Below are positions 12,991 to 59,291 of a stretch of 64,000 nt of DNA, piece by piece (position 1 is the first letter of the stretch; each line of letters starts with the position of its first letter). The stretch lies in NCBI GenBank assembly GCA_023823795.1, contig CP085710.1, positions 3,870,001-3,934,000 of the forward strand, in the 5' to 3' direction. Under the pieces are notes generated by a model. That model had not been told where the DNA came from and did not search any database. It saw nothing but the letters and a program-made list of their open reading frames with translations. This stretch comes from Bacillus sp. F19 (lineage in GTDB: Bacteria; Bacillota; Bacilli; Bacillales; Bacillaceae). A program made the translations under genes and the position numbers.

Positions 12991-13474
12991 GAAAAGCGGA
13001 ACCGACTGATCAGACCCGACAGACAGATAAGAAATCACCCGAAAAGTCCGGGTTTGACTTTTTGGGGGATTTTGTTCTGGCCGAGGGGCTAGGAGGTGAA
13101 GCTGGACATCTCGAAAAGCGGAATCGCCGTTTAGCTCCGACAGACAGATAAGGATCCGACAGAAAAGGCGCTTTTTGACTTTACTGGCGGATCCGTTCTG
13201 GCCGAGGAGCTGGGTGATGGAGCTGGACAACACCGAAAAGCGGAACCGACTGATCAGACTCGGGCAGACAGATAAGAAATCACCCGAAAAGTCCGGGTTT
13301 GACTTTTTGGGGGATTTTGTTCTGGCCGAGGGGCTAGGAGGTGAAGCTGGACATCTCGAAAAGCGGAATCGCCGTTTAGCTCCGACAGACAGATAAGGAT
13401 CCGACAGAAAAGGCGCTTTTTGACTTTACTGGCGGATCCTTTCTGGCCGAGGAGTTGGGCGATGGAACTGGACA
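12991..13474 (+). repeat. Four-unit array of the 122-bp hairpin element, A-B-A-B order
   Basis: Units begin with GAAAAGCGGAA at 12991, 13113, 13235 and 13358, a period of 122-123 bp. Units 1 and 3 (type A) carry an inner stem with AAAAGTC/GACTTTT. Units 2 and 4 (type B) carry GGATCCGACAG/CTGGCGGATCC. All end with a TTCTGGCCGAGG block and a GCTGGACA-like segment. Units 1 and 3 are nearly identical, as are 2 and 4, so the array probably arose by duplication of an A-B dimer. A fragment of a fifth unit starts at 13482. Confidence 0.95.
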
Positions 13475-13547
13475 AAACCGCGAAAAGCGGCATGCCATCT
13501 AAAATCTCTAATATAACTGCCAATTCAGCTCAGATTGGGATGAACAA

Positions 13548-13733
13548 TTAGCCGAATTTGGAGTTTTATTAGCCAAAACTTCATATTTTCTAGCGGAAAT
13601 TCCGTTTTATTTAGCGGATTTTGGAGTTATTTTAGCCGTTCATTTTTTTGATGCAGCCTATTTTTTATTAATTCATCCGTTTTGTTTTAAATTTAGCAAA
13701 AAGGCTGATTTATTAGCCGGACCCGCCGCAATA
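13548..13733 (+). repeat. Degenerate tandem repeat with exact 21-bp phase
   Basis: TTAGC or CTAGC cores start at 13548, 13569, 13590, 13611 and 13632, each 21 bp apart. Units look like TTAGCCGAATTTGGAGTTTTA with several substitutions. Weaker cores follow near 13693 and 13713. The stretch is AT-rich and contains no open frame of note. It lies between the GC-rich hairpin array and the methyltransferase gene. Confidence 0.8.
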
Positions 13734-13759
13734 TATTAGGAGTTGATAAAATCCCGTTC

Positions 13760-14518
13760 TTATTGATCCCCTATACAATGATACAAAAGAATGCCTGCTG
13801 CAATTCCTGCATTTAAGGATTCTGCTTTTCCTAGAATCGGAATGTACAGATTTTGATCAGTGAGCTGTAGATATTCTTTATTTACTCCGCTTCCCTCATT
13901 GCCAATAAGCAGACCAAATGAAGCTGCTGCTTCGGTTTTGCGGTAATCAACACCATTTTGAAGCGAGGTTCCGTATATAGAGACATTTTGCAGTTTAAGC
14001 TCTGAGATTGCCTCATTCAATTTTCTTTTTACAATTGGAATATGAAAAATTGATCCCTGACTGGAACGGACAACCTTTGAATTGTATGCATCCACAGTTC
14101 CGTCTCCAAGAATGACTCCATCCATCCCTGCTGCATCTGCAGTCCTGATGATTGTTCCCAGATTGCCCGGGTCCTGAATGGCATCTATCAGCACGACCTT
14201 TTTCCAGGCACTGATTTCGTGCTTTTCTGATTGAAAACAGACTGCAGCTGCACCCTGTGGCGATTCTGTTTCAGAGATAGCTTTCATGATTTCTTTCGTT
14301 ACATATATAATCGGCAGATCATCCGCATTCCAATGAGATGGAATGGATGCTTCTTCTGAAATGATCAATTCTTTAATCACTGATTTATCTTTTAAGGCTT
14401 CTTCTACTAAATGCAAGCCTTCAATTAAAAATGTATTCGTTGTGTCTCGTTCTTTTTTGGTATGTAATTTACGCCACTGCTTTACCTTTTGATTTTGTAC
14501 AGATTCAATTCGTTTCAC
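13760..14518 (-). CDS. ysgA: SpoU-family RNA 2'-O-methyltransferase (YsgA)
   Basis: SPOUT-class methyltransferase expected to modify rRNA or tRNA ribose with SAM. The N-terminal substrate-binding domain contains KKERDTTNTFLIEGLHLVEEAL. The knot domain shows motif 1 QDPGNLGTIIRTADAAG, motif 2 IGNEGSGV and motif 3 IPILGKAESLNAGIAAGILL. I start at GTG 14518 (252 aa), 8 nt after AAAGGAG; an ATG at 14548 lies upstream of that ribosome site. The exact target nucleotide is not deducible here. Confidence 0.9.
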   Translation of the reverse strand: MKRIESVQNQKVKQWRKLHTKKERDTTNTFLIEGLHLVEEALKDKSVIKELIISEEASIPSHWNADDLPIIYVTKEIMKAISETESPQGAAAVCFQSEKHEISAWKKVVLIDAIQDPGNLGTIIRTADAAGMDGVILGDGTVDAYNSKVVRSSQGSIFHIPIVKRKLNEAISELKLQNVSIYGTSLQNGVDYRKTEAAASFGLLIGNEGSGVNKEYLQLTDQNLYIPILGKAESLNAGIAAGILLYHCIGDQ

Positions 14519-14590
14519 GAGTACTGCTCCTTTATAGCTGCTTTTCATCTATTTAATTATTGGATCTTTTAATATTCTGCTTTTATCTTT

Positions 14591-14695
14591 TGTCCAGCTG
14601 CACTGCCAAAAGACTTCGCCATAAAAGTCATAACCGGGCTTTTATAGCTGAGCTTTATCTATCTGTCTGAGTTAAACGGGCGATATCACTTTTCT
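14591..14695 (-). repeat. Diverged single copy of the hairpin element
   Basis: Read on the minus strand it runs from AAAAGTGATATCGCCCG through GACAGATAGATAAAG to GCAGCTGGACAAAAG. It keeps the left arm, spacer and right-end GCTGGACA-like block but has lost most of GGCCGAGG. Confidence 0.65.
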
Positions 14696-14779
14696 TTATT
14701 ATATCTTATAAAACATACATAAAAAACACAAACTAACACAGGATATAGATAGGTAAATATTATATGATGTGGAGTGATT

Positions 14780-14995
14780 ATGTTGGATTTAAATCTAAGA
14801 AATGCCATTATCTCAAATGTATCAGGCAATGACCAAGGTCAGCTTGAGGATACGATTGTAGATGCGATTCAAAACGGCGAAGAAAAAATGCTTCCTGGCT
14901 TAGGCGTTCTGTTCGAAGTGATCTGGCAGAATTCCAGCGAAGATGAGAAAAATGAAATGCTGACGATTCTTGAAGAAGGTTTAAAGAAGAAATAA
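14780..14995 (+). CDS. sspI: Small acid-soluble spore protein SspI
   Basis: Minor forespore SASP of about 71 aa with no alpha/beta-type motif. The sequence [10 protein letters not shown], then [20 protein letters not shown] and FEVIW, matches the SspI family closely. ATG 14780 follows GTGGAG with 5 nt spacing; a GTG two codons upstream is possible. In B. subtilis it is forespore-specific (sigma-G); I could not identify a convincing sigma-G box by eye. A bidirectional terminator follows. Confidence 0.92.
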
Positions 14996-15022
14996 ATGCT
15001 GGGCAGACTGCCCAGCATTTTT
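14995..15022. terminator. Bidirectional terminator, sspI / ysdC
   Basis: AATGCTGGGCAG pairs with CTGCCCAGCATT almost without a loop and is followed by T on the plus strand and A-rich sequence on the other side. Confidence 0.85.
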
Positions 15023-15029
15023 ATGTTAT

Positions 15030-16115
15030 TTAATCAAAGGTAATCGTTTTAACGGTGTCTTCGTCTAAACGTTTAATAACCTCAGTAATTAATTTCACTG
15101 CATTTTCATAATCATCCCGATGCAGCATGGCAGCATGAGAGTGGATATATCTAGTAGCAATCGTAATGGAAAGAGCAGGAACACCATTCGCTGTCATATG
15201 GATTGCGCCTGAATCTGTTCCTCCGCCTGCAATCGCGTCAAATTGATATGGGATGCTGAGTTCATCGGCAACACCGACAACAAAATCACGCAATCCTTTA
15301 TGAGACACCATTGATGCGTCATAAAGAATAATTTGCGGACCTTCACCCATTTTACTTGATGCTTCTTTCTCTGAAATTCCTGGTGTATCACCAGCGATTC
15401 CAACATCAACGCCAAATCCAATATCAGGCTGTATCGCATGTGCCGACGTACGTGCTCCGCGAAGCCCTACTTCTTCTTGAATCGTACCCACACCATATAC
15501 AACGTTTGGATGTTCAGCATCTTTCAGTCCTTTTAGGACATCAATTGCAATTGCACAGCCGATGCGGTTATCCCACGCTTTCGCAAGCAGCATCTTTTGA
15601 TTGTTCATAACCGTAAATTCAAAATACGGGACGATTTGATCTCCAGGCAAGACACCGAACTCCATTGCTTCTTCACGGCTTGATGCCCCTATATCAATAA
15701 ACATATCTTTAATGTCGACCGGTTTTTTTCTCACTTCAGGAGGAAGGATGTGCGGCGGTTTAGAACCGATAACACCTGTAACATCCCCTTTTTTTGTAGT
15801 GATCGTCACACGCTGTGCAAGCATAACCTGTGACCACCATCCGCCTACCGTCTGAAAACGAAGAAATCCTTTATCATCAATTTGCGTGACCATAAAGCCA
15901 ACTTCATCTAAGTGGCCGGCAACCATAATTTTCGGGCCGCCTTCTTTGCCTGTTTTTTTGGCGATTAAGCTCCCAAGACCATCTGTCGTAACCTCATCGG
16001 CATATGCCGTTATGTATTTCTTCATGACTTCTCTCGGCTCTCTTTCATTGCCGGGAATGCCTTTTGCATCTGTTAAATCTTTCAGCATCTGCAGTGTTTC
16101 ATCTAATTTCGCCAT
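15030..16115 (-). CDS. ysdC: M42-family glutamyl/leucyl aminopeptidase (YsdC)
   Basis: Dinuclear-metal cytosolic aminopeptidase, 361 aa. The metal ligands expected in M42 are visible: His in AGHLDEVGF, Asp in KAWDNRIGC, the Glu pair in [11 protein letters not shown], Asp in GVDVGIAGD and His in [10 protein letters not shown]. Family members form large tetrahedral assemblies that trim short peptides. GGGAGG precedes ATG 16115. A promoter in the 62-bp gap to the dUTPase gene suggests independent transcription. Confidence 0.92.
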
Positions 16116-16144
16116 TCATTTACCTCCCTCTTTTACTATTTCCT

Positions 16145-16173
16145 ATTATACTAAACGCTGGAAAGTAATTCAA
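16145..16173 (-). promoter_or_regulatory. Sigma-A promoter for ysdC
   Basis: TTGAAT (16173-16168), 17-bp spacer, TATAAT (16150-16145) on the minus strand, 30 bp before the ysdC start. Confidence 0.7.
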
Positions 16174-16177
16174 AATC

Positions 16178-16666
16178 TTAATAGCCCTGTTTTTGACGAT
16201 CATGGTTTACTTCATTCTTTTTAACATAAGCAGTCTCAACTTCTTCAGCCGAAAATCCAAGAACTTTTCCAAGCAAAAGGTACTGCTGAAACATTTCAAG
16301 ATAGTGTGCTTCAGAATGGCTTTTTTCAAACTGCGCTATCTTTTCATATACATGAACAAAATGTGCTGTTAAAGAAATTTCCTCATCGAGCAATTCAAAT
16401 TCATACCCCTCTGTCATGCCAATCTCAATTCCAAGCGATAAAATGAAATGTATGCCATCTACATACTCCTCAAGAATGACGCTTGTTTCAGCTGGAGGTT
16501 TTAAACTCCAAAATTTAAAGCACCTTGTTTCATTGGCAAGTTCGCCAACTTCAACTAGCAAAGCTAAAATTTTCTTTTCAAGCAGCGGTTCCTCTTCCAG
16601 GCCGTGCTGTTTTTCAATTTTCAAATCAAGGTTCTTCTGCATCTCAAACAATTTCAAAAAATTCAC
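16178..16666 (-). CDS. Dimeric dUTPase-like protein (dUTPase_2 / all-alpha NTP pyrophosphatase)
   Basis: A 162-aa all-alpha protein with the MazG/dUTPase_2 metal-binding pattern: LLVEVGELANETR (about 35-47), then EEYVDGIHF (about 66-74), where acidic residues hold Mg2+. Members hydrolyse dUTP to dUMP and limit uracil in DNA. The start is GTG 16666, 9 nt after AGGAG. It lies upstream of ysdC on the same strand. Specificity for dUTP rather than another NTP is inferred from family resemblance only. Confidence 0.82.
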   Translation of the reverse strand: MNFLKLFEMQKNLDLKIEKQHGLEEEPLLEKKILALLVEVGELANETRCFKFWSLKPPAETSVILEEYVDGIHFILSLGIEIGMTEGYEFELLDEEISLTAHFVHVYEKIAQFEKSHSEAHYLEMFQQYLLLGKVLGFSAEEVETAYVKKNEVNHDRQKQGY

Positions 16667-16746
16667 TGTTCATCACTCCTATACTCCGCCAAGTTTACCA
16701 CTTACACTTGTTTACTTCAAAAAAATTTAATCATACATAAAAAAAC

Positions 16747-16773
16747 TGAAACCTTATGAATGCTTCAATCGTA
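16747..16773 (+). promoter_or_regulatory. Sigma-W promoter of ysdB
   Basis: TGAAAC (16747-16752), a 17-bp spacer and CGTA (16770-16773) match the extracytoplasmic sigma-W consensus. B. subtilis ysdB belongs to the sigma-W regulon, so both sequence and gene agree. Confidence 0.88.
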
Positions 16774-16804
16774 TTGTAACAAAATACGTTTGGGAGGCAC
16801 TGCC

Positions 16805-17200
16805 ATGATAGTAATCCTGTTACGATTACTTTTGCTTGTTCTTTTTGTCTTTGTCCTATATTCCCTTGCAAAATATGTGCTGAATCCCAAGCGGAGGCTT
16901 GAGCTTGCACAAGAAAAAAAGCAGTTTTTTCTGCTTGATGAACGTGACAACGTGCGCAAAAACTTCTTGTTAACTTACAAGGGTGTTTTGTTCGAAGGCG
17001 AGAAATACCTTGGAACAACAGATCAGGCGTTTGAGGTTGTATCCATCTTTATTTGGACCGGCACCCTAAGTAAACTTCAAGGGCTCTCCCTCTCTGATTT
17101 TGAATTTGTAGAAGAAAAAGTGAGGGAACGATATCCTCATGCTGCTCTTAATTGGAAAAGTCCCGTGAAAGAATTCTTGTTAAAAAGCCAAAAGCCGTGA
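16805..17200 (+). CDS. ysdB: Sigma-W-regulated membrane-anchored protein YsdB
   Basis: A 131-aa protein of unknown biochemical role. One N-terminal membrane helix (about 3-22) is followed by a soluble part with PKRRLELAQ, VRKNFLLTYKGVLFEGEKYLG and a C-terminal RYPHAALNW, matching B. subtilis YsdB. GGGAGG lies 7 nt before ATG 16805; upstream in-frame codons precede the ribosome site. The sigma-W promoter about 30 bp upstream suggests a role in cell-envelope stress. Confidence 0.88.
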   Translation: MIVILLRLLLLVLFVFVLYSLAKYVLNPKRRLELAQEKKQFFLLDERDNVRKNFLLTYKGVLFEGEKYLGTTDQAFEVVSIFIWTGTLSKLQGLSLSDFEFVEEKVRERYPHAALNWKSPVKEFLLKSQKP

Positions 17201-17815: not shown

Positions 17816-17871
17816 AAGATGACTTTTTGTGAGAATCGTGTGTACTAAATTGTATCTAATTCAATGGAGGA

Positions 17872-18141: not shown

Positions 18142-18161
18142 CATCATCATCCTTTCTATAA

Positions 18162-18293
18162 GAAAAGTGCAAGTGCTTGTTTAGCTCTGGCATGACAGAT
18201 CAGCAGCAAAGTCCGATTTTGACTATTTTGACGGATTTGTTCTGGCCGAGGATCTAGGCTTGCCATCAATGCTTAAAATTATATACTTTCTTA
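18162..18293 (+). repeat. Diverged hairpin element with extended 3' tail
   Basis: It starts GAAAAGTGCAAGTGC and keeps AAAGTCCGATTTTGACT and TTCTGGCCGAGGAT. A tail with CTTGCCATCAA then ends at CTTTCTTA (18286-18293). The same tail type follows the copies at 23143 and 59181. Confidence 0.75.
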
Positions 18294-18349: not shown

Positions 18350-18357
18350 TGAAGCGA

Positions 18358-19485: not shown

Positions 19486-19553
19486 TAGCCACCTCCAAGG
19501 ATTTTTAACTGAACAGATGAATTGTTTGTGCTACACTTTCTTGAAAAACAAAA

Positions 19554-19692
19554 AAGTGTGGGCGCACAAAACACCCACACTACGATTTAGTATACTAAGT
19601 ATATATAGTCGTAAACCTGCAGACTGCAATGATGCGTCGATCAGGTGAGAAGCGGGTGCTTCTGCTTGCAAGACAAACTTCTATTCAATTAC
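19554..19692 (-). promoter_or_regulatory. L20-type leader and attenuator of infC-rpmI-rplT
   Basis: The roughly 200-nt untranslated leader holds a strong terminator at 19581-19554: AGTGTGGGTG pairs with CGCCCACACT before a T6 run. Downstream GTGTAGC could compete for pairing. In B. subtilis L20 binds this leader and favours termination. The L20 site itself was not folded in detail. Confidence 0.8.
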
Positions 19693-22071: not shown

Positions 22072-22116
22072 GATTATTCAGCTTTTTTTTATAAGATAAG
22101 ATAGTATCCGCATTGG

Positions 22117-22234
22117 TGTCTGGCTCCGTCTCCCAACTCCTCGGCCAGAACAAATCCGCCAAAAAGTCAAACCCGGACTTTTCTGCCTGATTCTTATCTG
22201 TCATGCCTGAGCTAAACGGGCGTTTCCGCTTTTC
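22117..22234 (-). repeat. Full-length hairpin element abutting the ytxC stop
   Basis: On the minus strand it reads GAAAAGCGGAAACGCCCG ... AAAAGTCCGGGTTTGACTTTT ... GGCCGAGGAGTTGGGAG ... GCCAGACA, a type A unit. Its first base directly follows the ytxC TAA (22237-22235). Confidence 0.88.
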
Positions 22235-23059
22235 TTAAATACCGGCCATTATTCTGGGATAAATGTTTACCCGCTCCAAAAAAATATTCTGTATTGTCCG
22301 TACCATGCCAAAGTCTGGTGAATCGGTATATAAATGAATTTTGTTTGGAGCGATTGACACCAGCGGCGCCAAAAGCGAGGCATCAATGTACATAGGATGC
22401 TGATGAATAAAAGACCTGTCAATATACTTCATCAGCTCATCCTGGCTCAGTTCAGCAAAATGTTCATTGTAAACTGTCAGCTCTTTTTCATGCACGATGT
22501 GAAGCACGTTCACTTTCGTTTTCCTGTTCATGGCATAATCTCTTAAACTTTGAATAAATGTCTGATATTCCTGCTCGAGCTTGTACTCTTCGATCGCAAT
22601 CTCAATATATTTATTTAAACGCTCCACATACTGGTGAAGACGGAATTTTATAAAGGATGGAAGAGCAAAAGACAGATTAGGCCTGATGAAATCGGCCAGA
22701 GCTTCATAGATGGGAGTTTCCCTTAGCGGAAGCTGATCAACTTTCGGAATCTCGCTGCGTTCTCCTTCAATAATCGCCTCGGCAATATGTATTATTTGCT
22801 GCTGTTCCTCCGGCTCTTGAAAATAGAATTTGTCTTTGATGATGGACAGCATCAGGTGAGATTCTTTGTACTTCAGGATGTAGCGGACGATCACCGGAAT
22901 CAGAAGGACGTTAATCATCTCACCTGGATCATTGCTTACAATCTGGATTCCATGTTCCTTTATTCTAACAATCTCGGCTTTCCATTTATCACGCTCATGA
23001 TCAAGCATATTGTGGACTGTTTCTGCTTCATGCGGAGAATTGAAAAATATTTCGATCAT
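22235..23059 (-). CDS. ytxC: Sporulation-associated protein YtxC
   Basis: A 274-aa soluble protein, MIEIFFNSPHEAETVH at the start and a C-terminal part with IAPNKIHLYTDSPDFGMV and TIQNIFLERV. It matches the YtxC family, conserved in endospore formers near thrS; the biochemical role is unknown. No membrane segment is seen. A hairpin element follows the stop codon with no gap and may act as the transcript's 3' structure. Confidence 0.82.
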   Translation of the reverse strand: MIEIFFNSPHEAETVHNMLDHERDKWKAEIVRIKEHGIQIVSNDPGEMINVLLIPVIVRYILKYKESHLMLSIIKDKFYFQEPEEQQQIIHIAEAIIEGERSEIPKVDQLPLRETPIYEALADFIRPNLSFALPSFIKFRLHQYVERLNKYIEIAIEEYKLEQEYQTFIQSLRDYAMNRKTKVNVLHIVHEKELTVYNEHFAELSQDELMKYIDRSFIHQHPMYIDASLLAPLVSIAPNKIHLYTDSPDFGMVRTIQNIFLERVNIYPRIMAGI

Positions 23060-23142
23060 GGTTGTCCCCCCTTTTTAGCCAATACCTGATTTCATGTATA
23101 TGGCGGAGAACCGTTAAATAGAATCGTTTTTTAAAGGAATTA

Positions 23143-23224
23143 GAAAAGCGCAAGCGCCATTCCGGTCTGATCGAGGATCTGTGCGATCCGCCTGCCATCA
23201 AATCGCAGCATTTTTACTTTCTTA
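23143..23224 (+). repeat. Short hairpin element with the CTTTCTTA tail
   Basis: It begins GAAAAGCGCAAGCGCC, has GAGGATCT in place of the GGCCGAGG block, and ends with GCCATCAAATCG and CTTTCTTA (23217-23224). The middle stem found in long copies is missing. Confidence 0.65.
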
Positions 23225-23236
23225 AAAATAAATAAA

Positions 23237-40172: not shown

Positions 40173-41441
40173 TTACATTTTGCTGATTAAAGCATCAGCG
40201 AACTCAGAGCATTTTACTTCTTTAGCGCCGTCCATCAAACGGGCAAAGTCATACGTAACTACTTTATCTGAGATTGATTTTTCCATTGCGTCAACAACTA
40301 ATTTAGCTGCTTCATTCCAGCCTAAGTGCTCAAGCATTAACACACCTGACAGAATAACAGATGATGGATTTACTTTATCAAGTCCCGCATATTTAGGAGC
40401 TGTGCCATGAGTAGCTTCGAAGATAGCATGTCCAGTTTCATAGTTGATATTTGCTCCAGGAGCAATACCGATTCCGCCAACTTGAGCAGCAAGGGCATCA
40501 GAAATGTAATCTCCGTTTAAGTTCATTGTTGCAACTACGTCAAATTCACGCGGACGAGTTAAGATCTGCTGTAGGAAGATATCTGCAATCGAATCTTTTA
40601 CGATGATTTTGCCTGCAGCTTCTGCATCCTGCTGTGCTTTGTCTGCAGCATCCTTGCCGTCTTTTTCTACGATGCGGTCGTATTCAGCCCAAGTAAATAC
40701 TTGATCTCCGAATTCTTTTTCAGCCAGTTCATAGCCCCAGTTCTTGAAAGCACCTTCAGTATATTTCATGATGTTTCCTTTATGAACGAGTGTAACTGAT
40801 TTGCGGCCTTCTTTAATTGCATAATTGATTGCTGCACGCACCAGACGCTGAGTTCCCTCTTCAGAAACAGGTTTAATGCCGATGCCTGAAGTTTCAGGGA
40901 AACGGATTTTATTAACGCCTAACTCATTTTTAAGGAAAGAAATCAATTTTTCTACTTCTTCTGATCCTTTAGCATACTCAATTCCAGCATAGATATCTTC
41001 CGTATTTTCACGGAAAATCACCATGTCTGTATCTTCAGGGCGCTTAATCGGAGAAGGAACTCCATTAAAATAGCGTACAGGACGAAGACAAGTGAACAAG
41101 TCAAGCTCTTGACGAAGAGCAACGTTCAATGAGCGGATTCCTCCGCCTACTGGAGTAGTTAAAGGTCCTTTAATAGCAATGAAATATTCGCGGATTACTT
41201 CAAGTGTTTCTTCAGGAAGCCATTCTCCAGTTTTGTTAAATGCTTTTTCTCCAGCTAAAACTTCTTTCCACTCAATTTTCTTTTCGCCATTATATGCTTT
41301 ATCAACTGCTGCCTCTAAAACGCGTGAAGCAGCCGCCCAGATATCAGGACCAATTCCGTCCCCTTCGATAAATGGGATGATAGGATTGTTAGGTACGTTT
41401 AATACTCCATCTGCAACTGTAATTTTTTGTCCTTGTGTCAA
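40173..41441 (-). CDS. icd: Isocitrate dehydrogenase (NADP)
   Basis: Oxidative decarboxylation of isocitrate to 2-oxoglutarate. The 422-aa protein has GDGIGPDIW near residue 30, [19 protein letters not shown] (substrate Ser and Arg), [14 protein letters not shown] and GTAPKYAG. The phosphate-binding serine region and length fit Bacillus Icd. It lies between citZ and mdh. A hairpin repeat unit sits 27 bp upstream, inside the citZ-icd intergenic region. Confidence 0.97.
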
Positions 41442-41468
41442 AATAATGACCTCCTGTTATGTAATTTA

Positions 41469-41587
41469 GAAAAGCGGAATCGCCTGGTCAGCTCCGACAG
41501 ACAGATCAGAAATCACCCCAAAAGTCCATTTTTGACTTTTTGGGGGATTTTATTCTGGCCGAGGAGTCAGGCAGTGGGCTTTACTTG
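41469..41587 (+). repeat. Full hairpin element in the citZ-icd intergenic region
   Basis: GAAAAGCGGAATCGCCTGG at the left, an inner stem CACCCCAAAAGTC / GACTTTTTGGGGG, and GGCCGAGGAGTCAGGC at the right. It is a type A unit, oriented opposite to the operon. Confidence 0.92.
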
Positions 41588-41674
41588 AAAAGCTAAAACT
41601 GCGGGCTTCTGATTCTTCAATAAGTGGCCGTTTCAGTTTCACCTGAAAAGGGCCTCTTGTGTGATTAAGGGAGA

Positions 41675-42793
41675 TCAGCCCCGCTGGTCCATTGGCACGT
41701 ATTTCTGCATATTCGGTCCTGTGTAATCTGCACGCGGGCGAATCAGACGGTTGTTCTCATATTGCTCGAGAATATGAGCGAGCCATCCTGATACACGGCT
41801 CACAGCAAAGATAGGCGTGAATAAATCATGATCAATGCCTAAGCTGTGGTACATGGATGCAGAATAGAAATCTACGTTTGGCGGAATGGATTTTTCACTT
41901 GTTACAACTTCTTCAATTTTAGTAGAAATTTCAAACCATTTTGGCTCACCTGTAAGATTCGTCAATTTTTCAGACATTTCCTTCAGATGTTTCGCTCTCG
42001 GATCTCCCTGGCGATACACACGGTGTCCAAAGCCCATAATTTTTTCTTTTCTGGAGAATTTTTCATGCAAGTATGACTCAACGTTATTAATGTCTCCAAT
42101 TTCTTTGAGCATTTTCATTACCGCTTCATTTGCTCCGCCATGCAAAGGTCCCTTAAGAGCGCCGATTGCTGCAGTTACGCCAGAATAAACATCTGATAAT
42201 GTTGCTACACACACGCGTGCTGTAAATGTAGATGCATTCAGTTCATGATCGGCATGAAGGACTAATGCTTTATTAAAAGCTTCCACTGCAACACTGCTCG
42301 GCTCTTCTCCAGTTAAAGTATACAGGAAATTCACTGCTAAACTAGCATCTGATTTTGGTTTAATAGGCTCAAGTCCTTTGCGGATACGGGCGAATGCTGA
42401 AACAATTGTCGGCAGCTTTGCCTGAAGACGGATCGCTTTGCGGTAGTTAGCTTCCGGATCCATTACATCTGCTTCACTGTCAAATAAGCCAAGAAGAGAA
42501 ACAGCTGTACGGAGAGCTGCCATCGGATGCACAGATTTTAGATCGTATGATTTAAAGTGATCGACAACCTCCTGCGGTATTTCTGCATTTTCAGCAAGCT
42601 CTTTTTTAATTTCTGCAAGCTGGTCTTTCGTAGGAAGCTTTCTATGCCACAATAAATAAACGACCTCTTCGAAACTAGCATTCTCTGCTAAATCATCGAT
42701 ATTATACCCCGCATATGTAAGAGTATCATCAATAATCGAACTTACAGATGAAGTAGTAGCAACTACTCCTTCTAGACCCCGTGTTGTTGTCAT
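41675..42793 (-). CDS. citZ: Citrate synthase II
   Basis: Condenses acetyl-CoA and oxaloacetate. The 372-aa protein (MTTTRGLEGVVATTSS) has GPLHGGANEAVMKML and MGFGHRVYRQGDPRA with catalytic histidines, and NVDFYSASMYHSLGI with the catalytic Asp. ATG 42793 follows AAAGGAG and gives the B. subtilis CitZ length; an upstream extension to 42847 lies in the leader. First gene of citZ-icd-mdh. Confidence 0.97.
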   Translation of the reverse strand: MTTTRGLEGVVATTSSVSSIIDDTLTYAGYNIDDLAENASFEEVVYLLWHRKLPTKDQLAEIKKELAENAEIPQEVVDHFKSYDLKSVHPMAALRTAVSLLGLFDSEADVMDPEANYRKAIRLQAKLPTIVSAFARIRKGLEPIKPKSDASLAVNFLYTLTGEEPSSVAVEAFNKALVLHADHELNASTFTARVCVATLSDVYSGVTAAIGALKGPLHGGANEAVMKMLKEIGDINNVESYLHEKFSRKEKIMGFGHRVYRQGDPRAKHLKEMSEKLTNLTGEPKWFEISTKIEEVVTSEKSIPPNVDFYSASMYHSLGIDHDLFTPIFAVSRVSGWLAHILEQYENNRLIRPRADYTGPNMQKYVPMDQRG

Positions 42794-42951
42794 GTAAATC
42801 TCTCCTTTGCAAAAATATCCCCATTGATCCGCTCTTCTCGTCAACAATAAAAGATAGCATTCTACAAACTGGTCTTTTTCTTTTTATTTGCCCAATCTTC
42901 CAATCGTTTAAACGACCGAGCGCTTGCTCAATACACAAGCATTTATTAAAA

Positions 42952-43186: not shown

Positions 43187-43645
43187 TTAACCAAAAAATT
43201 TAACTGTTTGCATCACTAAATAGGCAATACCCGCTCCAATCAGCGGACCGACTGCAACTCCCCCAAATAAAGACACCGCTAAAATAGTTCCGAAGACAAG
43301 AGCTGTTGTTATATGGGGATCTTCAGAAAGAAGCGTCAAGCCATTTTTGGCTATAAGGGCAACAGCAATTCCGGCTCCTAAAGCGATCCATGCATAGGAT
43401 GATCTCATTGCCTCTGTCAGCTGCTTAAATCCAATATCACCGGTCGCAATCGGCACCAAAACGGCAATCATAATAACCGTTACGCCCCAATTGATTCCTT
43501 TTGCCTGGATATGCGGGAACAATTTAGTATCAAGGCCGGTCAGTTTGATAAAAAGTAAAAAGCCGACTGCAAACATTAATGATTGATTTTTGGCAAGAAA
43601 TCCAACGATCAATAATATGATTAAAAATAGGACAGGTTGATTCAT
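43187..43645 (-). CDS. ytwI: DUF441 membrane protein YtwI
   Basis: A 152-aa protein with four hydrophobic segments, starting MNQPVLFLIILLIVGFLAKN, and containing GTILAVSLFGGVAVGPLIGAG near the end; this matches the DUF441 family. Function unknown. AAAGGA lies 9 nt before ATG 43645. It is divergent from ytvI. A four-unit hairpin array fills the space between the two genes. Confidence 0.88.
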   Translation of the reverse strand: MNQPVLFLIILLIVGFLAKNQSLMFAVGFLLFIKLTGLDTKLFPHIQAKGINWGVTVIMIAVLVPIATGDIGFKQLTEAMRSSYAWIALGAGIAVALIAKNGLTLLSEDPHITTALVFGTILAVSLFGGVAVGPLIGAGIAYLVMQTVKFFG

Positions 43646-43679
43646 TCTCTTACATCCTTTCAAAACATGTTTCTACTAA

Positions 43680-44163
43680 GAAAAGCGGAACCGCCTGGTC
43701 AGCTCCGACAGACAGATAAGGATCCGACAGAAAAGGCGCTTTTTGCCTTTGCTGGCGGAGCCGTTCTGGCCGAGGAGTTAGGCGGTGGAGCTGGAAAACT
43801 TGAAAAGCGGAACCGCCTGGTCAGCTCCGACAGACAGATAAGGATCCGACAGAAAAGGCGCTTTTTGCCTTTGCTGGCGGAGCCGTTCTGGCCGAGGAGT
43901 TAGGCGGTGGAGCTGGACAACTTGAAAAGCGGAACCGCCTGGTCAGCTCCGGCAGACAGATAAGGATCCGACAGAAAAGGCGCTTTTTGCCTTTGCTGGC
44001 GGAGCCGTTCTGGCCGAGGAGTTAGGCGGTGGAGCTGGACAACTTGAAAAGCGGAACCGCCTGGTCAGCTCCGGCAGATAGATAAGGATCCGACAGAAAA
44101 GGCGCTTTTTGCCTTTGCTGGCGGAGCCGTTCTGGCCGAGGAGTTAGGCGGTGGAGCTGGACA
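43680..44163 (+). repeat. Four-unit tandem array of the 122-bp hairpin element
   Basis: Units start with GAAAAGCGGAACCGCCTGG at 43680, 43802, 43924 and 44046, a constant 122-bp period. They differ by only a few bases (for example CTCCGACAG against CTCCGGCAG). Each has the inner arms GGATCCGACAG and CTGGCGGAGCC around AAAAGGCGCTTTTTGCCTTT and ends GGCCGAGGAGTTAGGCGG then TGGAGCTGGACA. The last copy is followed by a tail ending CTTTCTTA at 44191. Near-identity implies recent amplification. Confidence 0.97.
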
Positions 44164-44228
44164 CGAGTACGGAAATTTATATCCTTTCTTACTATAAAAA
44201 TTCCGAATGAAAAACAGGAGGGAAACAT

Positions 44229-45338
44229 TTGAATGCATATTTAGTACAAGTTGCTGCCAGAGCACTTGCTGTTGCATGTATCATTGCCGCCGCTCTAGCC
44301 TCTGTTTATTATGTCTCGGCTCTTACTTACCCGTTTATTATAGGTCTCATTCTTGCGATTCTTATTAATCCAATGGTCAATCTGCTTGAAACAAAAATGG
44401 TCCGAAGTGCTGCTGTTTTTATTTCAATCGCATTCCTGTTTGTCATTTTCGCAGGAATCATAACTTTGCTTATCACAGAACTCGTAACGGGAACAACCTA
44501 CCTGGCGTCGTCCGTTCCTGAGCATTTCAAAACTCTGGTTGTTTATATTGAGACATTCATTGGGGATCGTGTGCTTCCCATCTATGAAGATATTGCTGCT
44601 TTATTTAATACGCTTGATTCAAGTCAGCAGGCTACGATACTTGCCAACATTCAAAATGCAGGTGAACAAATCGGATCGAATGCAGCCGATTTTTTAAAAG
44701 GGCTGCTTGAGAATATTCCTCTGTTTATCAGCTGGCTGCCGAACGCCGCAACAGTGACGATTTTCTCCTTGCTGGCTGCTTTTTTTATCAGCAAAGACTG
44801 GTACAAATTTCAAAAGCTGCTGCGCAAGTATCTTCCTCTTAAAGCAAGAAAAAGCGGGAGAACGGTGGTTGATGATCTAAAAAAAGCTTTGCTTGGATTT
44901 ATTAAAGCGCAGCTGATTTTAATCAGCATTACAACGATTATCGTATTAATAGGGTTACTCTTCCTGAGGGTGGATTATGCAATAACGATTGCTTTGTTAA
45001 TTGGAACAGTTGATTTGCTTCCCTATCTCGGAACAGGCCTGGTTTTTGTTCCATGGATTGTTTATTCGGCATTCAGCGGCGATCTGCCATTTGCTATTGG
45101 TTTAGGTGTCTTATATCTGATTATATTGATTCAGCGTCAAATGATGGAGCCCAAGATTTTATCCTCAACGATTGGGCTTGATCCTCTTGCTACTCTGATT
45201 TCATTATTTGTTGGATTCAAACTGATTGGATTTCTCGGTTTAATTGTGGGGCCTGTGGCTTTAGTCATTTTTAATGCCCTTCATAATGCAAGAGTATTTG
45301 AAGATATTTGGACATTTATCACTGCTAAGAAATCGTGA
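44229..45338 (+). CDS. ytvI: Sporulation integral membrane protein YtvI (AI-2E family)
   Basis: The 369-aa AI-2E/PerM-type transporter homologue has about eight membrane segments. YPFIIGLILAILINPMVNLLE lies near the N-terminus; GTVDLLPYLGTGLVFVPW and MMEPKILSSTIGLDPLATLISL near the C-terminus are family signatures. YtvI is annotated as a sporulation membrane protein; substrate unknown. The start is TTG 44229, 6 nt after GGAGGG. Confidence 0.88.
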   Translation: MNAYLVQVAARALAVACIIAAALASVYYVSALTYPFIIGLILAILINPMVNLLETKMVRSAAVFISIAFLFVIFAGIITLLITELVTGTTYLASSVPEHFKTLVVYIETFIGDRVLPIYEDIAALFNTLDSSQQATILANIQNAGEQIGSNAADFLKGLLENIPLFISWLPNAATVTIFSLLAAFFISKDWYKFQKLLRKYLPLKARKSGRTVVDDLKKALLGFIKAQLILISITTIIVLIGLLFLRVDYAITIALLIGTVDLLPYLGTGLVFVPWIVYSAFSGDLPFAIGLGVLYLIILIQRQMMEPKILSSTIGLDPLATLISLFVGFKLIGFLGLIVGPVALVIFNALHNARVFEDIWTFITAKKS

Positions 45339-50772: not shown

Positions 50773-50960
50773 AACGTTGCCTCCTTTTCTATGAAAATAA
50801 TTCGGTGTCTTTAGAAAGATCGTCTGACTGATTAGAAATGATCTCTTTTAGCCATATCTATCTACTTTAACGAACCATCTTCAATTTTTTTGTAAAAAGG
50901 TGTCATGTCCTATTCGACATTTTCTTTAAACGATCGGAATTCATATTAATTCCAGCATCT

Positions 50961-51037
50961 ATGTCAGCTACAGCGCCTAACTCCTCGGTCAGAGCTTTTT
51001 CTGCCTGTCGGAGCTTGACAAGGCGCTTGCGTTTTTC
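50961..51037 (-). repeat. Truncated hairpin element fused into the regulator 3' end
   Basis: On the minus strand it reads AAAAACGCAAGCGCCTTG ... CTCCGACAGGCAGAAAAAG ... GACCGAGGAGTTAGGCG ... GCTGACAT. The first part is translated as the tail of the GntR protein; the rest is untranslated. Confidence 0.82.
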
Positions 51038-51651
51038 TTATTTGTTAGAGTGTAAAAAGATTCAAAAACCATCTTTTCATCTTTTGAAGCAAGTCCGTCA
51101 ATTATTTTCTCATAAACGATGTCGCTGCCTGAGCCTGAATGATGATCTGTCTGTATTACTTTTAAATACTCATTCAGAACAGACCATATCCGGAGTAAAA
51201 GATAGTTGTCCGACAGCTGCATGAACTTAGCCATAATGTCCATATGTCCCAGGTTCTGCTCCTGAATAGCGATGGCGAGATTCTTTAACTCTTCTTCATT
51301 ATTATCTTTCTCAAGCAATAGCTTTAATGCATTTGATTCCAAAAGAACATTCATTTCAATTAAATCTGCGATAGCATTCTTATCCTGTAAAATAAACGTT
51401 CCGAGAATTTCAACAAGACCATGTTCGCGGAAATTCTTAATATACGTTCCTTCACCGCGTCTTGTTTCAATCATCCCAAGCAGCTCGAGCGCCCGAAGTG
51501 CTTCTCTGACAGATGATCTCCCTGCATTTAAGCGTTCTGCGAGCTCTCGTTCAGATGGTATTTTATCTCCTGCTGATAGACCGTCTTCGTGGATAATGGA
51601 CCTGATTTGACGAAGTATCTCAATATATACTTTCGACTTCGGTTCACTCAC
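50989..51651 (-). CDS. FadR-type GntR transcriptional regulator
   Basis: The 220-aa protein has an N-terminal winged helix (KIPSERELAERLNAGRSSVREALRALELLG, in pieces about 27-56; RRGEGTYI wing). The C-terminal alpha-helical FCD effector domain carries the metal-ligand pattern less clearly. The start is GTG 51651, 11 bp after the malic enzyme stop. The last 16 residues come from a hairpin repeat, so the native C-terminus may have been replaced. A GntR-type palindrome precedes the upstream malic gene, suggesting autoregulation. Confidence 0.88.
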   Translation of the reverse strand: MSEPKSKVYIEILRQIRSIIHEDGLSAGDKIPSERELAERLNAGRSSVREALRALELLGMIETRRGEGTYIKNFREHGLVEILGTFILQDKNAIADLIEMNVLLESNALKLLLEKDNNEEELKNLAIAIQEQNLGHMDIMAKFMQLSDNYLLLRIWSVLNEYLKVIQTDHHSGSGSDIVYEKIIDGLASKDEKMVFESFYTLTNKKNASALSSSDRQKKL

Positions 51652-56000: not shown

Positions 56001-56383
56001 CCAGGGGTAAAAGCCATTAAACCGCCGCTGTATGATTTCAGCCATCTGCTCTTAATTCCTTCAGGCGATTTTGTTTGAAGAACACTGCTGATTTTCAATA
56101 GATTCCGGTAGCCATCGTTATTTTTCGCAAGCAATACCAGCGGATACCCTGTACTTTCACCGGTCTCTTCTAAGATGACTGAAGCCGTCAGTCCGATAAT
56201 CGGCTTTATGCCGTGTTTTTTGCATTGTTTATAAAAAGCAACCGCTCCATACATCGTGTGAAAATCTGTAATAGCGAGAGCCTTTAATTGAAATGATTCA
56301 GCTTTTTCAATTAACTTGTTAATTCTTGCTGAACTATTCAGCAGACTGTAGGCACTTTGAACTTGAAGGTGAACAAATGGCAA
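53021..56383 (-). CDS. dnaE: DNA polymerase III alpha subunit DnaE
   Basis: Essential second replicative polymerase of Firmicutes, extending RNA primers on the lagging strand. At 1120 aa it has the PHP domain (HLQVQSAYSLLNSS, LAITDFHTMYG), the Pol C catalytic core with GPGRGSAAGSLVAY and PDIDIDFPDTKRDEM (catalytic Asp triad region), the thumb and fingers (FRPGPMENIPLF, YQEQIMEIASKMAGFSLGEA), a helix-hairpin-helix and a C-terminal OB domain. No intein or frameshift is seen. Confidence 0.97.
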   Translation of the reverse strand: MPFVHLQVQSAYSLLNSSARINKLIEKAESFQLKALAITDFHTMYGAVAFYKQCKKHGIKPIIGLTASVILEETGESTGYPLVLLAKNNDGYRNLLKISSVLQTKSPEGIKSRWLKSYSGGLMAFTPGRTGLAEKYIQEGNSEEAVRILKIYRSLFNEGDFYLSVQKHFLQEDLKMAEELLQISNQTGLPLVAANDVHYIEKEDAFAHNCLLSIKNGSKMEDDSDYALPSNQYYFKSPSEMAELFQDCPEALENTLKIANECNVSLELGKTQLPKYPAPGGQSADEYLERLCLQGLKHRFSEAKDTYFKRLEYELDVIKQMKFSDYFLIVWDFMKYAHDHHILTGPGRGSAAGSLVAYVLKITDVDPIEHHLLFERFLNPERINMPDIDIDFPDTKRDEMIAYVAEKYGSMHVAQIVTFGTLAAKASLRDVGRVMGASAKEADVLAKLIPSKPGTTLKQAYSESKDLQNLLSESDLYKKIYGTAMKIEGLPRHTSTHAAGVVLSSEPLTDIIPIQDGHNGIYLTQFSMDYLEDLGLLKMDFLGLRNLTLIEKITNLIERNEKKKIDFSQISYKDEKTFELLGQGDTTGVFQLESDGMRSVLRRLKPTDLEDIVAVNALFRPGPMENIPLFINRKHHREKIEYPHPALEPILKTTNGVIVYQEQIMEIASKMAGFSLGEADLLRRAVGKKIKEMLDQEREHFVSGCIDNGYDEASANSIYDLIVKFANYGFNRSHAVAYSMISFQLAYLKAHYPVYFMAALLTSVIGNDEKVAQYIREAKQHGVAVLPPSINKSEYPFIVEKGSIRFSLNAIKNVGTNAVKEIYQARKKREFTDLFDFCVRVSTKIVNRKVMESLVFSGAMDEFEVERSTLLASLDLAIEHAALFSSDDENQYDLFLEEEEFSIKPKYIEVEPFKIEEMLKFEKEALGFYFSSHPASAHSYLFNRFGIVKISDARQLLHQKVKVGVFITAIRTIRTKKGEVMAFLALSDESGELEAVAFPSVYTKAGDIFSQGKVAVLSGKIENRNDRMQLIISDAETTQDLEKRTKTLFLKIEETHLAEGKLQTVQDTLKRHRGSTPVFLYYEKDKRTVQLPRDYFVDANDRCLSELKDLLGNQNIAVKD

Positions 56384-56438
56384 TCTATGTTCCCATCCTT
56401 TCTGACAGCTGTATATTGTATAAAATTTTGTTCATCTA

Positions 56439-56488
56439 TGTCTAGCTCCACCGCCTGATTCCTCGGGTCAGATCGGCTCCGCTTTTCT
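56439..56488 (-). repeat. Short hairpin element upstream of dnaE
   Basis: Minus strand GAAAAGCGGAGCCGATCTGA joined directly to CCGAGGAATCAGGCGGTGG and AGCTAGACA. Both terminal arms are kept and the middle is missing. Confidence 0.75.
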
Positions 56489-56603
56489 TACAATCTCATA
56501 GTAATATTATATTCCTGTTTGAAAAGTGACACAAATTGAAGATTTCTCATCACATACTTCCCTCTGTTTGTCCATATACATGTTAGTAAGGGGATGATGA
56601 AAA

Positions 56604-56942
56604 ATGGAGGTTAAAGAAGCTTTTATACCAGCCTTTATTAATAGTTATTTTATAGCGCTCGGAGTAATCTTAGGCGGTTCAATCATCGGCGGCGTAGGAG
56701 CATACTTAGCCGGAGAGCCTCCTCTGTCAACGATTTACAGTCTTGCAAACAGATTGAAAATTTGGGCGCTTGTCGCTGCTATCGGCGGTACGTTTGATAC
56801 GTTTTACAGCTTTGAAAGAGGATTTTTTGAAGGTGAAACACGTGATGTCATCAAACAGATTCTGCTTATTATCTCAGCAATGGGCGGGGCACAGACAGGC
56901 TGGCTTCTTATTTCATGGCTGACTCAGGAGCAGCCGCAATGA
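56604..56942 (+). CDS. ytrH: Sporulation membrane protein YtrH
   Basis: A 112-aa protein with two to three membrane segments (AFINSYFIALGVILGGSIIGG at the start, IKQILLIISAMGGAQTGWLL at the end) and GTFDTFYSFERGFFEGE between. It matches B. subtilis YtrH, a sigma-E mother-cell protein needed for efficient sporulation. The next gene overlaps by 4 bp. A CATATACAT sequence about 25 bp upstream could be a sigma-E -10, but I see no good -35. Confidence 0.88.
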   Translation: MEVKEAFIPAFINSYFIALGVILGGSIIGGVGAYLAGEPPLSTIYSLANRLKIWALVAAIGGTFDTFYSFERGFFEGETRDVIKQILLIISAMGGAQTGWLLISWLTQEQPQ

Positions 56943-57442
56943 GAATACCGCCTTTATACAAAAGACCTTCCTGGCAGCGACTATTCGCAGGAATGGTTCT
57001 CGGCGCCGTCGTCAGCTGGTGTATCTTTCTCTACATTTACGGTGAATGGCAGGAAGAGCTTATTACCAAGATTGAAGATCAGGCATATACAATTGAGGAA
57101 TTAAAAAAAACAAATATAAGCTATAAAGAAGAAATTGAGACTCTCAATAAAATCAATCAGGAAAAACTAAGAGTCCAAAACATCCATGTGACACTGATCA
57201 ATGGGGAAAGGTATCAATTCACGTCACTTATGACCTATATGATCCAAGATCATGTAAAAGAGGATATTTCTGATGTCATTGCAAAGGATTTGGAAAGTGT
57301 ATATAAAAGCCGGAAGCTGATGAAAAAAGCCATTGAAAATAAGGTATATAAAATTGATGACAAGCAATACAAGGTGGAAATTGAGGAAATGTTCATATAC
57401 ACCACCCTATTCATCGAGCTTAAAGTAGCATTCGCAAAGTAG
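56939..57442 (+). CDS. ytrI: Sporulation membrane protein YtrI
   Basis: A 167-aa protein with one N-terminal membrane segment (GMVLGAVVSWCIFLYIYG, about 20-37), a coiled coil (about 40-80) and a soluble C-terminal domain outside. ATG 56939 overlaps the ytrH TGA (ATGA), giving the B. subtilis YtrI length. The ytrH-ytrI pair acts together in sporulation; molecular role unknown. Confidence 0.87.
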   Translation: MRIPPLYKRPSWQRLFAGMVLGAVVSWCIFLYIYGEWQEELITKIEDQAYTIEELKKTNISYKEEIETLNKINQEKLRVQNIHVTLINGERYQFTSLMTYMIQDHVKEDISDVIAKDLESVYKSRKLMKKAIENKVYKIDDKQYKVEIEEMFIYTTLFIELKVAFAK

Positions 57443-57609
57443 AAACCGGGACTTACGAACCGAACAGATGGATCCTGTATAAGCATATCTAAATAAATTG
57501 AATTATTTTTTGAAATTTCAATTAATTAAATCGCACTCCCTCGCGTCTTTGGGGTAAAATGGTGATAGCATCAGACCCGATCACCCACTATAAAGAAGGA
57601 GGGAATGTG

Positions 57610-57792
57610 ATGTATGTATTAAATCACAAAAAGATGGCCCGCGAAAAAGCAGAACGGCTGAAAGAAGGTTTCTCCGCTTATGCAGAGTCTGCGGAGCTCG
57701 CTTCATTAATTAAAAAAGAACTGCTTGCACAAAAACTGACCTTCCATGAAGATTCAACAGAATTTGGATATTGGTTTATTCCTGTAAAATAA
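57610..57792 (+). CDS. Small conserved hypothetical protein (60 aa)
   Basis: A 60-residue basic N-terminal peptide, MYVLNHKKMAREKAERLKEG, followed by SLIKKELLAQKL and an aromatic tail FGYWFIPVK. GGAGG lies 7 nt before ATG 57610. B. subtilis has a small gene (ytzJ) near nrnA that could be the counterpart, but I cannot confirm it. It converges with nrnA with 5 bp between stops and no visible terminator. Confidence 0.7.
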   Translation: MYVLNHKKMAREKAERLKEGFSAYAESAELASLIKKELLAQKLTFHEDSTEFGYWFIPVK

Positions 57793-57797
57793 AGCGA

Positions 57798-58733
57798 TTA
57801 ACCCTGACACACCTTTTCAAGATCTGCTAGAACCTGCTCTGCTTCTTCCCAGTTATAGATCGATGCCCCTGAAGCAAGCGGGTGCCCTCCGCCGCGATAT
57901 TTCTTTGCCAATTCATTGATAATCGGCCCTTTAGATCTTAAGCGCACTCTAATTTGATCGGATTCCTCTACAAAGAAGACCCATGCCCGAAGACCTTCAA
58001 TATTGCCAAGCATTCCAACCAATTGAGAAGCCTCAGATGCACTTACTTCAAATTTTTCAAGAATTTCTTTTGTAAGGATCATCGATGCAGCACCCGAAGA
58101 TGACAGTTTAAAATTTTGCAGAACGTATCCGCTCAGCTTTGCTGCATTCACCTTTGTCTTATATAACCCATCATAAATTTCTGTGAAAGCAAAGTTATAC
58201 TCAACTAGCTCACTTGCGTATCTCAGCGTTTTTTTCGTCGTGCTCGGAAAAAGAAAACGGCCTGTATCTCCCACTATGCCTGCATAAATAAGCTGAGCTG
58301 CTTTATCAGGCAAAACGAGTCCATCTTCTTTCCCTGAAAGGTAAAATTCATAAATCATTTCACTGACAGAACTTGCATTAGTATCAACCCATAAGAAATC
58401 TCCATACGGATCTTCATTAGGATGATGATCAATCTTAATTAATTTAGCGCCTTTATGGTAGCGCTGATCGCAAATACGCTCCTGATTGGCTGTATCACAG
58501 ACAATCACTAAAGCGCCCTCAAAATCCTGGTCTGTTACGGTGTCCATCTTATACAAAAATTCAAGAGTCGGCTCCCCAAGTCCCGCAAGTAAAACTTTTT
58601 TATCAGGAAATGATGCTTTAATGATTTCAGCTAATCCGCACTGTGATCCGTATGCATCCGGATCAGGCCGCACATGCCGGTGAATAATGATCGATTGATA
58701 TTCTTTTATGGCTGACAGTATTTCACTTTTCAT
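57798..58733 (-). CDS. nrnA: Oligoribonuclease / pAp phosphatase NrnA
   Basis: The 311-aa DHH-DHHA1 phosphoesterase degrades nanoRNA and 3'-phosphoadenosine 5'-phosphate. Manganese motifs are HRHVRPDPDAYGSQ (about 21-34), VIVCDTANQERI and KIDHHPNEDPYGD; the DHHA1 end has KYRGGGHPLASGA. ATG 58733 follows GGAG with 7 nt spacing. Same place as ytqI in B. subtilis. Confidence 0.95.
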   Translation of the reverse strand: MKSEILSAIKEYQSIIIHRHVRPDPDAYGSQCGLAEIIKASFPDKKVLLAGLGEPTLEFLYKMDTVTDQDFEGALVIVCDTANQERICDQRYHKGAKLIKIDHHPNEDPYGDFLWVDTNASSVSEMIYEFYLSGKEDGLVLPDKAAQLIYAGIVGDTGRFLFPSTTKKTLRYASELVEYNFAFTEIYDGLYKTKVNAAKLSGYVLQNFKLSSSGAASMILTKEILEKFEVSASEASQLVGMLGNIEGLRAWVFFVEESDQIRVRLRSKGPIINELAKKYRGGGHPLASGASIYNWEEAEQVLADLEKVCQG

Positions 58734-58880
58734 ATGTAATCTCCTTTGCATACCTGCTTATAGACTAATTAAATCATAAAAACCACCGTGCAGAAAAGCG
58801 AATCTTCTCTTTGGTTATGGCAATTCACTTCAAGAATGATTAAAATAGAGGATGTAAGTTTAATATGGAGGTTATACTTA

Positions 58881-59177
58881 ATGCCTGTACTCGTAATTCT
58901 GATTATCTTTGCATTTTCCTTTTATCTCTTCTATAAAGTGAAATTCTACAGAACAAAAAAACCTATGGAGAAGCAGTGGCTCTCTGCAAAATCAAGCATT
59001 GCACTTGGAATTTTCGTCTTTTTCTTTGGACTCAATCAATTATTTCTTTTTCATTCAACTGTATCATTAGTCGTTGGAATCATTTTTATGATCGTCGGAA
59101 TCGCCAGCAGCTGGGCAGGATATAAAGCTTATAAACATTATTTGCCTTTTGCCGTTAAGGAATCCAAACAAGGCTGA
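58881..59177 (+). CDS. ytpI: YtpI-like membrane protein
   Basis: A 98-aa protein with three hydrophobic segments (MPVLVILIIFAFSFYLFYKV; SIALGIFVFFFGLNQLFLF; VVGIIFMIVGIASS) and a short basic tail. GGAGG lies 9 nt before ATG 58881. Position between nrnA and ytoI matches ytpI. Function unknown. The hairpin element starts 3 bp after its stop. Confidence 0.83.
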   Translation: MPVLVILIIFAFSFYLFYKVKFYRTKKPMEKQWLSAKSSIALGIFVFFFGLNQLFLFHSTVSLVVGIIFMIVGIASSWAGYKAYKHYLPFAVKESKQG

Positions 59178-59180
59178 TTA

Positions 59181-59291
59181 GAAAGCGGAAGCACCTTGGT
59201 CAGCGCAGGCATGGCGGATCTGCTCTGACCGAGGTGCTGGGAGCTGGGAGCTGCCACTTGCCATCCATACGCAAAATGTTATCCTTTCTTA
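59181..59291 (+). repeat. Diverged hairpin element with CTTTCTTA tail
   Basis: GAAAGCGGAAGCACCTTGGT at the left, GACCGAGGTGCTGGGAGCTG at the right, then CTTGCCATCCATACG and CCTTTCTTA (59283-59291). The middle stem is shortened. It starts 3 bp after the ytpI stop. Confidence 0.72.

Follow-up and report, generated by a model that had tools for sequence, protein, structure and literature searches.

A mostly intergenic repeat with a selected fold is scattered along the chromosome of Bacillus sp. F19 (GCA_023823795.1), in well over a hundred copies, nearly all of which face one way relative to replication. The starting point was a window of 64,000 nucleotides, i.e. the whole stretch of DNA analysed, which corresponds to bases 3,870,001-3,934,000 of contig CP085710.1 (C1; 5,085,462 bp, in a genome of 5.59 Mb in two contigs). 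Plain coordinates refer to the window, those with the prefix C1 to the contig. The unit of the host is about 118 nt long, has the ends GAAAAGCG and GGAGCTRGACA and consists of one long interrupted hairpin. A preliminary description of the window had placed the family at ten loci on both strands, and all ten are members of it, with 16 units in total; units outnumber loci because four units of about 122 bp stand in tandem at each of the loci 12991 and 43680. The spread of the repeat through the order, its insertion at empty sites and its replication-set orientation lay beyond the view of that description.

Fold and covariation

The hairpin has an AGC/GCT base with a GGA/GGA loop, followed by helix P2 (7 bp), a 5'-side bulge of 4-5 nt, helix P3 (6 bp) and a variable inner hairpin. 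For 63 full-length copies RNAalifold gave a single hairpin of 20 pairs, 9 of which are kept through changes on both sides, e.g. pair 53-79 of this alignment is A-U in 29 copies, C-G in 18, G-C in 10 and U-A in 5.

It had been proposed that the paired arms change together, and above background. We tested this on 162 unique sequences out of the 175 full-length copies above the score cut-off, drawn from the host, from its genus and from a number of genomes outside it. The null model, which follows the idea of R-scape, was tree-based: the substitutions of each branch were randomly re-placed along the tree in 100 simulations. The three best of the 5,995 column pairs (50-74, 42-82 and 57-67) are helix pairs, none of the null pairs was as high in 100 simulations, and these three column pairs, and no others, pass E 0.05, so the proposal held on both counts. 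Ranks 4-12 contain further helix pairs (17-101, E 0.23; 45-79, E 0.61; 47-77, E 2.7; 44-80, E 3.7) as well as the non-helix pairs 60-72, 61-72, 59-72, 57-61 and 15-104. The test is not final alone, because recombination between copies can make the tree wrong.

The individual arm pairs named earlier are complementary as claimed apart from two corrections of one mismatch each, one in the inner stem and one in the GGATCC arm. In the B-type units at about 13112 and 13357 AAAAGGC lies opposite GACTTT, its full GCCTTT partner being found in the 43680 array, and in this latter array GGATCC faces GGAGCC. Mismatches of the A.G type are common within the genus: in the 162-copy set 47 copies have tandem G-A/G-A at four P2 positions, where 87 copies have the two standard pairs. 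These mismatches point to the top strand as the folding one, since the bottom strand would show C.T and C.A mismatches instead. Reading the folding strand from energy alone was considered and dropped, as shuffled sequences show a nearly equal strand difference. The folded molecule may be either RNA or single-stranded DNA; the preliminary description likewise allowed RNA or DNA.

Distribution in the order

The spread of the family was assessed with the head-to-tail junction of two units, i.e. GGAGCTRGACA, 0-6 bases and GAAAAGCG, the backwards version of the pattern serving as control. Of the 397 genomes sampled in the order, 162 have the junction, and they represent 63 of 135 genera; the control had zero matches in the listed genomes. 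In ten sampled genomes of genus g6, which belongs to the same family, the pattern was not found. Matches of the R1 model outside the family were not used for the spread, some of them resembling evenly spaced chance matches or rRNA-linked ones; the junction pattern was preferred because its control was zero and the R1 matches are partly doubtful.

From the surroundings of the junctions 55 units were collected in ten families of the Genome Taxonomy Database (GTDB). Their layout is constant and their stem letters are different. Since the end letters served to pick the units, their constant ends and AGC/GCT base follow by construction, which is not true of the arms. In the 51 distinct arm sets kept, which include 33 distinct P2 5' arms, P2 has on average 5.98 of 7 pairs within a unit versus 3.24 with an arm from another family, and P3 has 5.49 of 6 versus 3.27; the observed means were reached in none of 5,000 permutations. 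Of the 50 units having at least 5 of 6 P3 pairs, 48 carry an unpaired 5'-side bulge of 4 or 5 nt (ties in bulge size broken towards 4.5), and a tandem G.A variant of P2 (CGACT/AGGAG) occurs in 8 units from families f1, f13, f29, f37 and f41. In other words, the 5' bulge and the recurring G.A variant are kept, not perfected, across families. Because pairing with the own arm is kept across ten families with different letters, we conclude that the fold is selected. This claim stands, strengthened by the order-wide data, and a common layout with complementary yet differing stem letters gives strong support to the original suggestion that the fold is conserved and the copies are not neutral debris.

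In Anoxybacillus thermarum (L128, about 9720-9893) there is a relative of 173 nt that shares the ends but has a longer inner part.

Orientation relative to replication

There are at least 150 model matches in the genome (150 of 2,308 candidates scored), all of them on C1, which leaves the 507-kb second contig with none. The region of the terminus is poor in copies. The dnaA gene is at C1:334, and C1:2,486,815 has a single dif-like sequence, two mismatches from the dif site of B. subtilis. With this split, 78% of 1,413 script-called genes are on the leading strand. Orientation was surveyed in 1.55 Mb chosen around strong matches rather than in a random sample, and the counts of multi-copy arrays and of leading-strand genes depend on overlap filtering and a simple gene caller of our own.

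In 115 of the 131 arrays the top strand is in the nascent-lagging sense. All 26 multi-copy arrays conform, and so do 36 of 37 arrays with a second unit start, compared with 79 of 94 others (p = 0.04). The gene context was evaluated for arrays located between ORFs and away from stretch ends. Where both neighbour genes are on the leading strand, 65 of 71 arrays run against the genes; where both are on the lagging strand, all six arrays follow the fork and thus run with the genes. Between convergent genes 26 of 30 arrays conform to the fork, between divergent genes 15 of 19. The fork, not gene direction, sets the orientation, because arrays between lagging-strand genes still follow the fork.

In a 655-kb block of the relative G001, 45 of 47 copies have one orientation. 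By inspection of the matches listed, two sister-genus genomes (G008, G016) look alike with few exceptions, and a third genome (G022) is mixed. For nine other genomes the contig midpoint was used as the split and the origin was assumed at the contig start, and one of them (G296) entered with the 24 junctions listed out of 38. The number of conforming loci is 67 of 93, or 56 of 67 when the three genomes of family f13 are left out.

Ends, insertion sites and empty sites

The copies sit mostly in intergenic DNA beside TA/TAA. The 5' end is sharp (GAAAAGC) and mostly preceded by TA or TAA. The 3' end is of two kinds: either a long tail ends near CATCAATGCGCAAAATTTTATACTTTCTTA, or, in the array form, a new unit starts 0-6 bases past GGAGCTRGACA and the point at which the final unit stops varies. 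Of the 106 better-scoring arrays, 104 have an intact 5' end and 85 an intact 3' end, and the last unit is truncated in 11 of 26 multi-copy arrays. By a loose pattern, 54 of 131 arrays are of the tail type, and the long-tailed form alone has short imperfect ends resembling TAAGAAAAG/CTTTCTTA.

All ten sites of the window are filled in two close relatives (97-98% at 41675-42847). In more distant relatives (93%; G001 and G007) the sites at 18162, 22117, 23143, 50961 and 56439 are empty, and in the 655-kb block of G001 further sites are empty, have just the first part of a unit or differ in unit number. The copies thus insert, given that relatives have empty sites. An apparent target duplication of about 3 bp (TAA) was seen at 18162, 22117, 50961, C1:3413021 and C1:3496314, by eye and against diverged empty sites.

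At the site matching C1:3728868, G001 has a minimal form with only the two outer ends of the long-tailed element, which suggests a product of internal deletion. A second interspersed hairpin family (..CTTTCCGCGGGGAG....CCCGCAGGAGTCAAGT.., about 150-200 bp) occupies the same intergenic sites in relatives, mostly without the first family: the 14591 site in G004 and G005, the 50961 site in G003 and the 59181 site in G007.

Origin of the arrays

Spacers are constant within arrays, i.e. 14 of 18 adjacent junction pairs are identical. The first spacer equals the exact 5' flank in 4 of 25 arrays, as compared with 1.9% of comparisons with the flanks of other arrays, and this identity is as expected from a second copying round that restarts a few bases upstream. 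We read the element as a non-autonomous mobile repeat with its folding strand in the nascent-lagging-strand sense and with tandem expansion during replication, a reading to which we give about an even chance of being right. Re-priming during replication is, we think, the likeliest origin of the arrays; it is favoured because the fold joins the unit ends and the orientation puts the folding strand in the nascent-lagging sense. The folding strand would have the sense of the nascent lagging strand, folding during replication would return its 3' end beside the 5' end, and the 3' end could then re-prime there so that units are recopied head to tail. The first insertion would depend on an enzyme supplied in trans. 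A wider proposal, which we put forward only tentatively and consider rather doubtful, is that there is an order-wide class of structured chromosomal repeats copied by the host replisome, in which a strand-specific hairpin with fixed ends would cause the nascent lagging strand to re-prime upstream, the fold being selected as the unit's means of replication and fork direction setting the orientation.

Several observations weigh against mobility coupled to replication. The spacer and the flank differ in 21 of 25 arrays, the match being partial or absent. No mobilising enzyme was found, the searches covering Y1 in the own genome and RVT_1 in host and relatives; the repeat has no parent transposon known to us, though none was searched for. 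As regards orientation, 16 of 131 arrays are opposite to the fork rule, and the fold asymmetry of reversed full-length copies does not differ from that of the others (10 versus 107, p = 0.92). That the top strand is the more stable one is mostly an effect of composition (shuffles -6.6 versus -8.2 kcal/mol), and three pairs supply 270 of 359 G.U cells. Finally, orientation fails in family f13, where 0 of 7 loci conform in G297 and 6 of 14 in G356 (5 of 5 in G394), and the units read in these three genomes run in the sense of nearby rRNA genes. Genes for rRNA usually run with the replication fork; if they do so there, the f13 units near them, those of G394 included, oppose the rule of the host.

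The same p value leaves unsupported the idea that reversed copies survive through a weaker fold asymmetry. In G297, units lie in a 16S-23S rRNA spacer in the rRNA sense (L241, about 1398-1635), and L240, L243 and L246 are near rRNA or tRNA genes.

Alternative explanations

The repeat could instead be a functional cis-acting RNA element, such as an mRNA 3' end or a processing or regulatory structure, that happens to recur. Such an element would have a fold under selection, and of the 35 arrays that have a gene upstream in the same sense, 27 do begin within 12 nt of its stop codon; the f13 unit in rRNA sense in the 16S-23S spacer points the same way. However, the 65 arrays between leading-strand genes mentioned above are antisense to both, relatives have empty sites, and Rfam 15 at the gathering score gave no repeat match in the whole window, only a T-box and an L20 leader, with nothing near threshold in the array at 43600-44300. 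We therefore regard this explanation as unlikely. The two leaders are ordinary ones on the minus strand, the T-box (RF00230) at 12697-12939 and the ribosomal L20 leader (RF00558) at 19544-19673.

A SINE-like retroelement, with bottom-strand RNA copied onto the 3' ends of the nascent lagging strand, would leave 5' ends that are fixed and units that run head to tail, the last of them truncated. Fixed 5' ends, often truncated last units and the nascent-lagging orientation are indeed seen, but RVT_1 matches, present in G000, G002, G006 and G007, are lacking in G001, G003, G004 and G005, which have at least 60 copies each, and the mismatches suggest that the opposite strand folds. We consider this origin improbable. 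Four copy-rich genomes without an RVT_1 match also weaken the case for a reverse transcriptase as a required partner.

If the units were neutral quasi-palindromes, template switching in replication would copy arm onto arm and so produce paired changes without selection. This correction of imperfect palindromes is a known process, as far as its description in PMC3820800 goes, and units are gained and lost in arrays. Under such a process bulges and mismatches should vanish, yet several families have both the 5' bulge and the tandem G.A variant, and A.G mismatches are common within the genus. The neutral account is very unlikely.

KOPS and SpoIIIE recognition sequences are polar chromosome-organising sites, and a similar role selected for orientation would agree with the strong replichore polarity and with the location of all 150 scored matches on the chromosome (0 on the 507-kb second contig), but it is very improbable in view of freely varying stem letters, few copies near the terminus and sites that are polymorphic among relatives.

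Comparison with known repeats

REP, BIME and REPIN elements, which are linked to RAYT transposases, are likewise short, folding, intergenic, high-copy and non-autonomous, and often form composite arrays, according to the available parts of PMC2817692, PMC3116915 and PMC3733652. The present units differ from REP/REPIN in that they are about 118 nt long and arranged head to tail rather than alternating, and in that their orientation is set by replication. REP/REPIN elements have a GTAG or CGTC tag at one end (PMC3733652, in part); the tag is absent from the copies read, whose ends are as given above. The Y1 transposase (RAYT/IS200-type, PF01797) had 0 matches in the host genome, with control matches in 5 of 14.

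In the Bacillus cereus group, bcr1 is an interspersed repeat of similar size (147-167) with mobile-element features; it is known to us by description only, and the title of its paper, as cited, calls it specific to this group. Bhal-1 and Bant-1, two intergenic stem-loop families of 72-74 nt in Bacillus genomes, can also be likened to the repeat by description only (PMC2267715) and may or may not be related to it; the main text of that paper contains neither the word replication nor the word orientation. Miniature inverted-repeat transposable elements (MITEs) are small non-coding insertions as well, and the long-tailed form, with its short imperfect TAAGAAAAG/CTTTCTTA-like ends as candidate terminal inverted repeats, seems to duplicate TAA at the target. 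Unlike in MITEs, the arrays and the constant layout of the present repeat are unusual features.

The segment 43802-44045 had no blastn match among 50,697 records of phages and 72,556 of plasmids; the collection as a whole has 4 stretches from viral contigs. Among the open-access literature matches listed, including those of a text search with the end sequences, no title or opening of an abstract describes the repeat.

In G072 (L249:1419-1485, minus strand) an Rfam Bacillaceae-1 RNA (RF01690, 67 bits) lies inside a repeat unit and interrupts its stem, an arrangement that looks like the insertion of one repeat into another. There is a weak second Bacillaceae-1 match at L261:1570-1638. The available text of PMC4333381 describes the strand of Bacillaceae-1 as uncertain.

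Copies in the window

Six loci (12991, 18162, 23143, 41469, 43680 and 59181) are on the plus strand and four (14591, 22117, 50961 and 56439) on the minus strand. The first array on the plus strand (12991..13480) has the order A-B-A-B with unit starts at 12991, 13113, 13235 and 13358 and a period near 122 bp, and a partial unit start (GAAAAGCGG) follows at about 13484. The second (43678..44167) consists of four near-identical B units that start at 43680, 43802, 43924 and 44046 with a period of 122 and the junction spacer ACTT. Beside it, the protein encoded at 44229-45338 matches at 95% both Metabacillus idriensis and a record labelled Peribacillus frigoritolerans F-D2, these being the closest named records found, and the host, judged at this one locus, is probably a Metabacillus relative.

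The remaining plus-strand loci are single. A lone copy at 18160..18293 has a long 3' tail ending with ACTTTCTTATC, its site being empty in G001, G007 and G003. The unit at 41467..41590 lies between ORFs 40173-41441 and 41675-42847, where unit number and type vary by species, i.e. there are two units in G006, one and a part in G007 and a part only in G001. Two short long-tailed copies are found at 23141..23225, with an internal deletion and with empty sites in G001 and G007, and at 59178..59293, directly after the TGA stop of ORF 58788-59177.

On the minus strand, the lone diverged copy at 14590..14697 has a deletion derivative at the same site in G001 and G007. A lone long-tailed copy (22090..22237; empty in G001, G007 and G003) starts at the TAA stop codon of the same-sense upstream ORF 22235-23059. 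Shorter forms are the copy with an internal deletion at 50955..51042 (empty in G001 and G007) and the deletion derivative at 56434..56492 (empty in G001, G007 and G003). The short derivatives at 23143, 56439 and 59181 are absent from the profile match list. The first two are confirmed by filled alleles in G002 and G006 as against empty alleles in G001 and G007; the third is filled in G002, G006 and G007, and G001 looks empty.

Significance

The repeat family occurs in 63 of 135 sampled genera of one order, and in it natural variation reveals the fold and chromosome position reveals the orientation. It also calls for caution, in that covariation in repeats need not mean a regulatory RNA. The family would supply annotation for the intergenic DNA of many Bacillales genomes, and it makes testable both the multiplication of structure-forming repeats by replication-fork slippage and the selection of strand-specific folding for it.

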